Source: Caulobacteraceae bacterium (GTDB lineage Bacteria; Pseudomonadota; Alphaproteobacteria; Caulobacterales; Caulobacteraceae). From it: a stretch of 35,828 nucleotides of DNA. A model generated the notes under the pieces. The model was not told the DNA's origin and made no database searches. It saw only the letters and a list, made by a program, of their open reading frames with translations. Shown one piece after another: positions 109 to 20,963 of the stretch (position 1 is the stretch's first letter; each line of letters begins with the position of its first letter). The DNA is taken from NCBI GenBank assembly GCA_025352165.1, contig JANXTX010000018.1, positions 1 to 35,828 of the forward strand, given 5' to 3'. Both the position numbers and the translations under genes were made by a program.

Positions 109-231
109 CGTGCCCCCTCCCCCCTTCGGGGTCCCTCTCCCCCGTAAAGAAACGGGGGAGGATTTATCGGGTTAGCAATCCTCCTCCGCGAAGCGGGGGA
201 GGGGGACCCCGAAGGGGTGGAGGGGGCACGC
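109..231. repeat. Two-armed palindromic repeat (family A, gene-less copy)
   Basis: Two arms in inverted orientation, about 109-165 and 177-231, surround a 12-base centre. Each arm starts at the centre with aatcc/ggatt, has one hairpin (gtaaagaaac loop on the left, cgcgaagcg on the right), then a second hairpin (cccc-gaa-gggg), and ends in gccccctcc / ggagggggc. The same architecture recurs at 4120-4254 and around the DUF559 gene at 7283-7801. It lies between an SDR stop codon and a convergent hydrolase stop, so the hairpins may also end transcription, but there is no U-tract. Confidence 0.85.
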
Positions 232-4119: not shown

Positions 4120-4254
4120 GCTCACGGGCCCCCTCCACCCCTTCGGGGCCCCCCTCCCCCGTAAAGAGAACGGGGGAGGATTTATCCGGTTAGCAATCCT
4201 CCTCCGCGAAGCGGGGGAGGGGGACCCCGACGCCGACGTGAAGGGGGCGTGAGC
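4120..4254. repeat. Two-armed palindromic repeat (family A, gene-less copy)
   Basis: Close relative of the 109-231 copy: same hairpin loops in the same order, the same 12-base centre with one change (tatccggttagc), and nearly identical right-arm beginning. The outer ends carry gctcacg (4120-4126) and cgtgagc (4248-4254) as an exact inverted pair. In the right arm the second hairpin has degenerated (ccccgacgccgacgtg). It sits between the Rieske and flavoenzyme genes, both read leftward, so a joint transcript would pass through it. Confidence 0.85.
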
Positions 4255-7028: not shown

Positions 7029-7250
7029 ATGAATCGCCGCGCAACCCTGGTCGCCCTCGCAATGTTGGCCGCGACGAGCGCCTGTTCACCCGCGCCGCGG
7101 CCCGCTCCACCACCGCCGAAGCTGGTCGCCGCAACGCCCGCGCCGCCGCCTGCGAAGGCCGGAACCATGGTCTGCCGCAGCAGCGTCGACGGACGCCCCG
7201 CCAAATGCGGAACGCCCAACGCGGTGATGGTGGGAATTAAGTTCGATTAG
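7029..7250 (+). CDS. Small proline-rich lipoprotein
   Basis: 73 residues, family not recognised. The N-terminus is a typical lipoprotein signal with charged NRR, a hydrophobic run and Cys19 in LAATSAC as the likely lipidated residue. A Pro/Ala-rich linker (21-43) leads to a short tail with two cysteines (Cys49, Cys60) that could form a disulfide. GGACGAG lies 9 bases before the ATG. It probably sits as a small envelope lipoprotein. The DUF559 element begins 32 bases after its stop. Confidence 0.65.
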   Translation: MNRRATLVALAMLAATSACSPAPRPAPPPPKLVAATPAPPPAKAGTMVCRSSVDGRPAKCGTPNAVMVGIKFD

Positions 7251-7282
7251 CCGGGGAACAGAGTAGGATTTGGATATTAGAA

Positions 7283-7340
7283 AATCCTCCTCCATGCCCT
7301 TGCATGGGGGAGGGGGACCGCGAAGCGGTGGAGGGGGCAA
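7283..7340 (+). repeat. Left 58-bp inverted-repeat arm
   Basis: Begins aatcctcctccatgccc and ends ggtggagggggcaa. The GGAGGGGG near its right end lies three bases before the GTG start of the nuclease gene and would serve as its Shine-Dalgarno sequence. Confidence 0.9.
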
Positions 7341-7760
7341 GTGCGAGCAAAAACCATTACCTTCAAACGCGCTCGCGGTATGCGGCGTCGTATGACACTG
7401 CCCGAGGTCGTGCTTTGGCATCATTTGCGAGGAAGCACGCTTGGTACGCTTCGGTTTCGTCGACAACATCCCGTTGGGGCCTACATACTGGACTTTTATT
7501 GCACCGCCGCCCGTCTGGCGATCGAAGTGGACGGAGCCGGCCACGGCCATCCTATTCAGGTGAGCCACGACGATGCTCGCGGTGCCTGGTTGCTGGACAA
7601 CGGAATCCATACGTTGCGGTTTGCGGCCGCGGACGTTCTGGACGAGCTGTCACTTGCGGATATTCTGGTCGCGATAGAGGCGGAGGCCGGTGCGCGGCTC
7701 TTGCCCCCTCCACCGCTTCGCGGTCCCCCTCCCCCATGCAAGGGCATGGAGGAGGATTAA
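7341..7760 (+). CDS. DUF559-family nuclease (PD-(D/E)XK, Vsr-like)
   Basis: 139 residues. The helical opening KRARGMRRRMTLPEVVLW (9-26), then FRRQHPVGAYILDFYC (39-54) and LAIEVDGAGH (59-68), match the DUF559/Vsr-like endonuclease core. Putative metal and catalytic residues are Asp51, Glu62, Asp64 and His68, with a DDAR segment (77-80) as in the family. No methylase or restriction partner is adjacent. GTG at 7341 is chosen because GGAGGGGG in the left repeat lies just before it; an ATG at 7380 would cut the first helix. Residues 121-139 (LPPPPLRGPPPP and so on) are translated from the right repeat arm and are not part of the domain. Function in vivo is unknown; nicking at its own repeat is a hypothesis. 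Confidence 0.8.
   Translation: MRAKTITFKRARGMRRRMTLPEVVLWHHLRGSTLGTLRFRRQHPVGAYILDFYCTAARLAIEVDGAGHGHPIQVSHDDARGAWLLDNGIHTLRFAAADVLDELSLADILVAIEAEAGARLLPPPPLRGPPPPCKGMEED
7701..7758 (-). repeat. Right 58-bp inverted-repeat arm
   Basis: Exact reverse complement of 7283-7340. Read in the nuclease frame it encodes the proline-rich tail; its last base is the T of the TAA stop at 7758-7760. Confidence 0.9.
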
Positions 7761-7801
7761 TCGGTCCCCTTCCTCGACGCGCTGGAGGGGGCGCGTGAGC
7801 C
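7759..7801. repeat. Decayed extra arm of repeat family A
   Basis: Starts aatc, keeps ggtcccc, then cgacgcg and ctggagggggcgcgtgagc. It resembles the degenerated right arm of the 4120-4254 copy (ccgacgccgacg then aagggggcgtgagc) with the first hairpin missing. It abuts the right arm of the nuclease element directly, giving arm-gene-arm-arm. Confidence 0.55.
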
Positions 7802-7821
7802 ACAATTACTCAGATATCAGG

Positions 7822-8226
7822 CTATCCCGGGAATCGCTCGAAGCTCGGGATTCCGTCTGGAACCTGGTGCCAGCTTTGCTTGTCGCAGGTGAAGATGGCC
7901 ATGTTCGGGCCGCCATACAGGCTCGGATCGTCCAGGGTGCCGACCTTGACCACCACGGCCGGAAAACCTGGAGGCCTGGTCGCCAGATGCGTGCCGCATT
8001 CCGGACAGAACTCGCGGGTGACCGCGCGGGCCAGGTCGGTACGGGTGAAGCCCTTCGGCTCGCCCAGCGTATAGCGGAACCCGTCCGCGGGCATGGCGAC
8101 GAACACGTTCGGATCGCCGCCGGTGATGTACTGGCATTCACGGCAATGGCACTGCGCCTTCATTACAGGCTCGCCCTCGGCGACATAGCGCACCGCTTTG
8201 CAATAGCATCCGCCCTCAAGCTTCAT
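7822..8226 (-). CDS. GFA-family zinc-binding protein
   Basis: 134 residues with the cysteine pattern of the glutathione-dependent formaldehyde-activating (GFA) fold: GGCYCKAVRY (5-14), CHCRECQ (26-32) and FCPECGTHL (73-81). These Cys hold two zinc sites, structural and catalytic in the Gfa enzyme. Most GFA-family proteins outside the true Gfa have no assigned substrate, so formaldehyde should not be assumed. AGGGAGAA lies 6 bases before the ATG. It is the last gene of a leftward run (regulator, DinB, dehalogenase, this gene), 30 bases behind the dehalogenase. Confidence 0.88.
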   Translation of the reverse strand: MKLEGGCYCKAVRYVAEGEPVMKAQCHCRECQYITGGDPNVFVAMPADGFRYTLGEPKGFTRTDLARAVTREFCPECGTHLATRPPGFPAVVVKVGTLDDPSLYGGPNMAIFTCDKQSWHQVPDGIPSFERFPG

Positions 8227-20721: not shown

Positions 20722-20873
20722 ATCCCTCTCTTCTCCCTCTGGGAGAAGTACGGCCGAAGGCCGGGATGAGGGTTTAGCCACTACAGCTGTGCCTTGTACG
20801 TGCTGGGCGCCTTTGTAGCGGCGATACCCTCCTCCGTCCCTTCGGGGCTCCTTCTCCCAGAGGGAGAAGAGAT
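20722..20873. repeat. Two-armed palindromic repeat (family C)
   Basis: Left arm 20722-20773 and right arm 20824-20873 are inverted copies: tctcttctccctctgggagaag opens both (right arm read in reverse complement) and gaggg closes both. Each arm again has two hairpins (ctccc-tct-gggag and ggcc-gaa-ggcc or cccc-gaa-gggg like). The roughly 50-base centre holds no gene. It lies between yceI and the FMN reductase gene. Confidence 0.8.
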
Positions 20874-20963
20874 AAATGCCGTGGATTTCATTAAAGTTTT
20901 GTCCCGGCTCGAACCGTGGGCGTCCCGCCCTGAGCTGGTCTAGCAGCAGCAATTCAAGAGGAA

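Follow-up and report, generated by a model that had tools for sequence, protein, structure and literature searches.

The RAYT (TnpAREP) genes with their REP/REPIN repeats are, as presented in the available parts of two papers (PMC3116915, PMC3733652), small nuclease-type genes flanked by dispersed palindromes, which often form inverted doublets; the tie between gene and repeat family is not strict across species, and the system analysed here shares these properties. For the BoxC/PIT/TMECO repeats, 3610 copies were counted in 262 proteobacterial genomes (Holder et al. 2015, PMC4666352). Known since the 1990s, the BoxC/PIT repeats have been linked to genome instability; the accessible text of that survey describes no remnants of transposases or integrases around BoxC/PIT/TMECO repeats and names no nuclease for them. 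Proteins of the DUF559 family are known from a different context. VsrA of Caulobacter (CCNA_02930) belongs to this family; it is the cause of the DNA damage response seen in a methyltransferase mutant, and a role in mismatch repair was proposed for it; the string "palindrom" is absent from the text of this paper as available (PMC12907096).

The locus described here lies in a stretch of 35,828 nucleotides (hereafter, the window) of contig JANXTX010000018.1, from the draft assembly of a Caulobacteraceae bacterium (GCA_025352165.1; 4.75 Mb in 437 contigs). A gene for a DUF559 (PF04480) nuclease of the PD-(D/E)XK/Vsr-like type, identified by profile match and predicted fold, occupies positions 7341–7760 of the + strand, with a GTG start, 139 aa and a TAA stop. 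As the original prediction stated, this gene is placed between perfect 58-bp inverted arms: the left arm (7283–7340, + strand), which reads toward the gene, and the right arm (7701–7758, − strand), its inverted copy, are reverse complements of each other without a single mismatch in 58 nt. The match gains one base inward (7341/7700) and none outward, and a repeat search of the window returned an inverted pair of 62 nt at 98%. A perfect inverted repeat of 58 nt is far beyond what chance can plausibly yield. It was also correctly read that the right arm encodes the last 19 residues of the protein (19 codons at 7701–7757) and ends on the first base of the stop codon, the T of TAA at 7758.

When folded as DNA, the left arm forms two hairpins at −17 kcal/mol (z = −3.55 against 200 shuffles): hairpin 1 at approximately 7286–7313 and hairpin 2 at approximately 7317–7329, with a GAA loop and a C-G closing pair, followed by a G-rich tail. 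The tail carries GGAGGGGG (7330–7337, + strand), which is Shine–Dalgarno-like for the GTG and exactly mirrors GGGGGAGG of the hairpin-1 purine strand. Thus, the claim that the left arm ends in a Shine–Dalgarno sequence stands as to the sequence but not as to its place: GGAGGGGG is followed by CAA and then by the GTG at 7341, and the arm ends in GGAGGGGGCAA. The mirror relation of GGGGGAGG and GGAGGGGG corresponds to the layout of an intrastrand purine triplex, and GGAGGGGG is a possible third strand of such a structure, judging by the motif definition in the accessible part of PMC4666352. A decayed arm extends outward from the right arm at 7759–7800 (+ strand) and ends in the flank GGGGGCGCGTGAGC, which also adjoins two dispersed copies (L006, L011); its positions 7772–7797 match the inner part of the arm at 81%, and the decayed relative noted earlier beside the arms was therefore found. 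A known RNA family was rejected as an explanation, as Rfam gave no match at E ≤ 0.1 within 7200–7900. Among 16 genomes of the genus (its own included), a long homologue of the phosphatase-like neighbour was found in only one, at 59% identity, and none of five window neighbours was found at the locus of the nearest DUF559 relative (L069); the synteny comparison within the genus is based on few and distant genomes.

The PF04480 match of the window protein has a score of 92.6 bits against a curated cut-off of 20.6 (E = 1.8e-26). Scans against Pfam and NCBIfam returned only this family, plus MTES_1575 below the cut-off, with no Vsr family and no HUH Y1 match. The residues D51, E62, D64 and H68 (D, E-x-D, H) are invariant in alignments of 18 and of 20 sequences. 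An AlphaFold2 model built with 20 sequences has a pLDDT of 86.8 and a pTM of 0.76, and the best solved folds found for it by Foldseek were 3hrl (E = 1.4e-5), 3r3p (E = 5e-4, TM by target 0.83) and 1vsr (E = 0.05). The 3hrl protein is NGO0050, which itself matches the DUF559 profile at 1e-24, and a sequence profile search gave 3r3p (I-Bth0305I) at 3e-5 and PvuRts1I at 4e-4. The predicted fold resembles that of the homing endonuclease I-Bth0305I. Two other identities were rejected: cargo of phages or plasmids, as the matches in 2 phage and 40 plasmid records are all below 60% identity, and a defence system, for which a weak partial match to DpdF (E = 1.6e-6 over 51 residues) was the sole one. 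The PHROG search gave two weak matches.

The DUF559 genes of related bacteria were analysed in a set of 60 genomes that spans the genus, family and order; PF04480 was detected in 37 of them. From 89 matches, 76 were scored, leaving out five weak ones, seven fragments or low scores and one with a short flank; two duplicate loci were excluded from the order-wide scoring. The 300 nt to the left were aligned with the reverse complement of the 300 nt to the right, and a score of at least 20 was taken as a pass. Inverted flanks were found at 55 of the 76 DUF559 genes and at 5 of 273 neighbour ORFs, and direct-repeat flanks at 24/76 and 5/273, respectively. The controls were greedily called ORFs (344, with enough flank at 273), and their flank segments begin 40 and 60 nt inside the ORF ends, those of the DUF559 genes at the domain ends. 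Most of the DUF559 genes scored in the order sit between inverted palindrome copies, and the earlier remark that this nuclease fold is not normally linked to such repeats proved wrong. A lack of flanking palindromes in most DUF559 genes, named there as an outcome that would speak against the link, was seen only in 21 of 76 genes, including one from the genome of the window (L004).

Among 150 drawn Pseudomonadota genomes, inverted flanks were present at 9/17 loci of the same class, 6/9 of other classes and 1/1 of the family, these being 27 of the 28 returned loci rather than every PF04480 match; in the controls of this draw, the count was 0/28. Seventeen loci hand-picked from the 40 records of the plasmid collection included eight that pass. 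Passing scores were obtained for Deinococcus psychrotolerans (57), D. aetherius (32.5), Pseudanabaena (63), Sphingobium (32), Novosphingobium (48.5) and Sphingomonas (24.5, 26 and 32.5). The Azospirillum (four loci), Sinorhizobium, E. coli, Photobacterium and Synechocystis loci fail, with scores below 13, and that of Picosynechococcus has an inverted score of 17, which fails, and a direct score of 28. Some DUF559 genes of two other phyla (Deinococcus, Pseudanabaena) are therefore flanked likewise. Related genomes enter all these counts as non-independent data.

The distribution of repeats and DUF559 genes among genomes was compared in the 150 Pseudomonadota genomes. As DUF559-positive, we took the 31 of 46 matching genomes with E ≤ 1e-10, since the weaker PF04480 matches lie mostly in very long ORFs. 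The exact TMECO pattern was found in 15/31 positive and 9/119 negative genomes (p = 8e-7), and at least three copies of the TMECO or window-type pattern in 18/31 and 6/119 (p = 2e-10); counted by family, with at least two copies, the figures are 11/17 and 5/30 (p = 0.0014). The reversed-pattern controls over the same 150 genomes gave one match in the TMECO scan and four in the scan for the window-type core. Repeats and DUF559 thus co-occur across genomes. Numerous repeats, for example, the 273 TMECO motifs of G116, would suit the explanation that any small gene of a palindrome-rich, GC-rich genome comes to be flanked by chance, but the flank controls (5/273 and 0/28) and the reversed patterns leave it a negligible probability. 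At the level of sites, a DUF559 domain is found no more than 200 bp away from 10 of the 104 listed motifs, against 0.1 expected under uniform placement, an expectation that ignores the intergenic location of repeats; the list covers eight DUF559-positive genomes, with G082 represented by its listed rather than all window-type motifs, and 6 of the 25 DUF559 genes of these genomes account for the ten motifs. Exact TMECO motifs bracket two DUF559 genes of G121 and one of G148; in G093, a motif of this kind flanks a single side. Two repeat-rich genomes outside the PF04480-matching set, G112 and G197, contain 36 and 121 TMECO motifs; the partner may have been lost there, or a different agent may be at work.

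Within the order, at least five window-type arms were found in 11 of the 13 genomes with a DUF559 gene of the window clade and in 12 of the 46 others (p = 2e-4). The effect is weak inside the family (11/13 against 10/22, p = 0.03), any DUF559 gene gave a non-significant difference in the order (17/36 against 6/23, p = 0.17), and the correlation of arm and protein similarity is weak (Mantel rho 0.09, 14/1000). These results bear on two explanations in which another agent is responsible for the repeats. In the first, this agent spreads the repeats, and DUF559 genes insert into the palindromes, or recombine between them, as into a safe haven. The 6 of 24 repeat-rich genomes without DUF559 and four genomes of the window's own genus that have the repeats but no DUF559 (G002, G009, G010, G014) agree with it, as does the pntAa–pntAb junction, which seems to host unrelated small ORFs elsewhere. 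It is nonetheless unlikely: such flanks are rare at neighbour genes (5/273), window-type arms follow one DUF559 clade, transposase and integrase remnants went unreported in the accessible text of Holder et al. (PMC4666352), and the presence of Y1 transposases is not associated with that of the repeats. The second explanation, that RAYT/Y1 transposases mobilise the repeats in trans, is very improbable, although the genome of the window has eight Y1_Tnp matches. Y1 transposases were found in 16/24 repeat-rich and 72/126 other genomes, which is no association (p = 0.50); inverted flanks were detected at 1 of 22 Y1 loci, two of which end at contig ends and give spurious direct scores; and no exact BoxC- or window-type motif was found at the scanned Y1 loci, which cover one of the eight own-genome loci.

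The arms are also dispersed without the gene. In the genome of the window, there are at least 24 matches to the window arm, with both window arms counted and up to 15 candidates scored per genome, and 36 exact copies of the arm core, including the two of the window; several of the dispersed copies form gene-less pairs. Two such pairs are located in the window itself. In the first (114–225), a core at 195–225 (+ strand; pattern match, exact core at C270:201–225) without a DUF559 gene is paired with a decayed partner at 114–137 (− strand; pattern with up to two substitutions). In the second (4130–4246), a core at 4130–4160 (− strand, up to two substitutions) has a decayed partner at 4219–4246 (+ strand). 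The outer hairpins are adjacent in both. In the G121 and G082 genomes, seven gene-less pairs consist of two arms pointing toward each other across 18 to 30 nt, and the same genomes hold DUF559 genes between arms of the same type in this orientation, so that gene-less elements with ends equal to those of a gene-bearing element, as in MITEs, occur in both. Pair polarity varies among genomes, and the pairs found in the window's own genome are opposite to the gene-bearing unit; 18 of 30 dispersed arms of relatives are unpaired, with pairing defined by pattern and polarity mixed. Repeat copies are situated at or near the ends of three contigs of this genome (C218, C313 and C394, with L013, L010 and L012), which suggests that contigs break at the repeat and that the copy counts are lower bounds. 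A second palindrome type (CTTCTCCCTCTGGGAGAAG...) forms an inverted pair between genes at approximately 20723–20880 of the window; its plan resembles, by eye, that of the repeats beside another own-genome DUF559 gene (L003).

A profile search of the same genome found five PF04480 matches. Palindromic repeats can be seen by eye close to all five genes, and of the four that have sufficient flank, L004 fails the inverted-flank score and the other three pass. Two of these paralogues are 86% identical over 496 nt, or 82% over about 616 bp with permissive scoring; no difference is seen over 57 nt in the left arm and the bases next to it, their right arms differ, and no homology was found in the further flanks available. 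The pair may have arisen by duplication or by two acquisitions, and contamination of the draft (2.7%) may be another source. Its dN/dS is 0.03 at a dS of 0.73, and nine other DUF559 pairs with finite dS have dN/dS values of 0.055–0.19, the pair of the window and L069 genes being saturated. The DUF559 protein is under purifying selection.

Insertion sites of the element can be compared best at the pntAa–pntAb junction. In Sphingomonas parapaucimobilis, the element is located between pntAa and pntAb, and two further DUF559 genes are at the sufB–sufC and yqeY–dnaG junctions; the Deinococcus element separates paaD from paaZ. A DUF559 gene is present at or close to the pntAa–pntAb junction in 20 of 80 sphingomonad PntAa loci, and 25 of the 78 measurable junctions have a length of 8–59 bp. 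In a tree of 141 rows based on few columns (94), the DUF559 genes of this junction and L157 form one group of 21 rows plus one outsider (bootstrap 86, SH-aLRT 96). Recurrent insertion at this site, from which scattered clades would be expected, was not supported, since nearly one group was found; the insertion in sphingomonads is thus old and inherited rather than a run of recent jumps. The arms at this junction are still recognisable, though the nearest proteins there are just 62–80% identical. The recent copying that was read from the identical arms of the window fits those arms, but recognisable arms elsewhere belong to an old insertion. Homogenisation of the arms within a locus is unsupported at pntA, where the left and right hairpins 2 differ. 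Matching arms have been lost at two loci (L185, L190), and one has a different arm type (L206). No target-site duplication is apparent at 16 filled and 7 empty junctions, all of them old and diverged.

The right arm at pntA usually encodes the tail of the DUF559 protein (PLHH..GPPPR.GED) and the stop codon. In several of the 16 filled junctions, the pntAa stop extends into the start of the left arm; GGGGAGGA of the right arm stands directly 5' of the pntAb start in most of the 16. GPPPRAGED-like C-terminal tails, for example, those of L211 and L256, are translated repeat arms and may mislead annotation based on protein tails. At five loci of other sphingomonads (L189, L192, L199, L202, L259), the pntAa–pntAb junction seems to hold unrelated small ORFs, and it may be an insertion hotspot. 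Another DUF559 gene is ycjD of E. coli K-12, in the sapF–ycjD–fabI region (L268, 2380–3230), with a palindrome with a 17-nt stem on its 5' side and a BoxC-like repeat on its 3' side. A match to this gene with its surroundings covers 80% or more of the query in 3333 of 5426 genomes. In three examined genomes with partial coverage, efflux genes adjoin sapF; this arrangement is a replacement and provides no clean empty site.

The arms share a plan that consists of a hairpin with C and G runs, often a small second hairpin and a G-rich mirror tail. In the window arm type, 54 distinct sequences of hairpin 2 were collected; 207 of 238 inner-stem positions pair (shuffled mean 32%, maximum 40%), 33/54 sequences are fully paired and 30/54 have a GNA loop, these being non-independent sequences pooled from dispersed and gene-flanking loci. 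In the small hairpin of the window type, the sequence varies but the pairing is retained. GNA loops are known for forming very stable DNA mini-hairpins. Among 3-nt loops, GNA read toward the gene was found in 58/164 cases at the order loci against 52/483 in controls, and in 56/77 at the pntA loci against 30/327; the figures are 8/40 against 8/63 for loci of the class and phylum and 6/34 against 8/85 for the plasmid collection. The length of hairpin 2 is a multiple of three in 20/22 coding right arms and in 15/26 left arms, in a set that is mostly one clade and has the window and L063 as its exceptions.

The last feature is relevant to the best rival explanation, according to which the arms serve the gene: the nuclease would be a Vsr-like repair enzyme of the host, similar to VsrA, and the hairpins would regulate its translation, mRNA stability or termination. 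The Shine–Dalgarno-like sequence in the left arm, the translated right arm with its hairpin 2 in multiples of three, the strong purifying selection, the old inheritance at pntA and the part of VsrA in the DNA damage response, as given in the accessible text of PMC12907096, all agree with this explanation. It predicts neither dispersed copies and gene-less pairs of equal geometry nor the co-occurrence of repeats and DUF559 among genomes, and the preference of GNA loops for the gene-ward strand in the alphaproteobacterial sets points, though not decisively, to single-stranded DNA. As the sole account, it is rather unlikely; however, cis-regulatory arms of a repair enzyme are compatible with a REPIN-like partnership, and both can be true.

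With slightly better than even confidence, we regard the window locus as a representative of a widespread family that pairs a DUF559 nuclease gene with a structured palindrome, similar to RAYT and REP but with an unrelated nuclease. In such a family, the nuclease would recognise its cognate arm, likely folded on one strand exposed during replication, and might read the hairpins with GNA loops and the G-rich third strand. It would cut at or beside the arm, and repair of the break by copying from another arm-bearing locus would keep the arms intact, also copy or restore the gene and now and then seed new pairs. The arms would be built to be harmless within operons, because they provide a Shine–Dalgarno-like sequence for the nuclease, a stop codon and, at pntA, a Shine–Dalgarno-like sequence for the next gene. 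The old insertion at pntA, the repeats in genomes without DUF559, the 21 of 76 genes without inverted flanks and the lack of a clear target-site duplication at the junctions compared argue against simple mobility. A broader proposal is that DUF559 is the mobilising or maintaining partner of the BoxC/PIT/intrastrand-triplex superfamily across several phyla, that is, a second, independently evolved REPIN-like system whose hydrolytic PD-(D/E)XK enzyme would read a folded single strand and spread it by cutting and repair; we hold this to be possible, at somewhat less than even confidence.

A link between DUF559 and repeats or palindromes was not found in the open-licence literature searched, including the accessible text of PMC4666352, PMC3733652 and PMC3116915. 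The link is common, wider than the original prediction supposed, and new relative to that literature. If the partnership is true, the question of what spreads or keeps BoxC/PIT repeats becomes a bench question through a conserved nuclease partner, a common protein family without an assigned role receives a function, and repeat–nuclease partnerships of the REPIN type have arisen with an unrelated enzyme, too. For annotators, caution with C-terminal tails of the GPPPRAGED type is advisable.

I-Bth0305I and Vsr are the closest solved folds to the window protein after the DUF559 protein NGO0050. I-Bth0305I differs in being intron-borne ("Mobile intron protein"), Vsr is a mismatch repair enzyme, and to our knowledge neither is tied to dispersed palindromes. 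Caulobacter VsrA is a DUF559 protein like that of the window, with palindromes unmentioned in the accessible text on it (PMC12907096). The Caulobacter CIR intergenic repeats are also dispersed alphaproteobacterial repeats with two hairpin arms; in the available description they are characterised by GANTC sites (PMC2229807), and they are likened to the window arms by description only. The BoxC/PIT/TMECO repeats share with the window arms a C-rich stem, a G-rich stem and a G-rich third strand, inverted pairs and a patchy copy number, as far as the accessible text of the survey goes. The window arms differ from them in having a second hairpin inside the second loop, and the TMECO pattern CCCTCNCCCN3-6GGGNGAGGGN3GGGNGAGGG gave no match in the window even with two substitutions and no exact match in the genome of the window (G000). 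As in a REPtron, the gene is flanked by palindromes dispersed in its own genome. The RAYT proteins carry an HUH Y1 domain, whereas the window enzyme is a PD-(D/E)XK/Vsr-like DUF559 protein; the GTAG/CGTC tag of REP palindromes is absent from the window arm sequence; and, unlike RAYT, DUF559 is commonly present in several copies per genome, with ten PF04480 matches, one of them weak, in G082. Membership among RAYTs or REPtrons therefore fails on the missing HUH/Y1 domain and the Vsr-like fold, and the parallel between this element and the REP palindromes with their RAYT transposases is apt as a working model.
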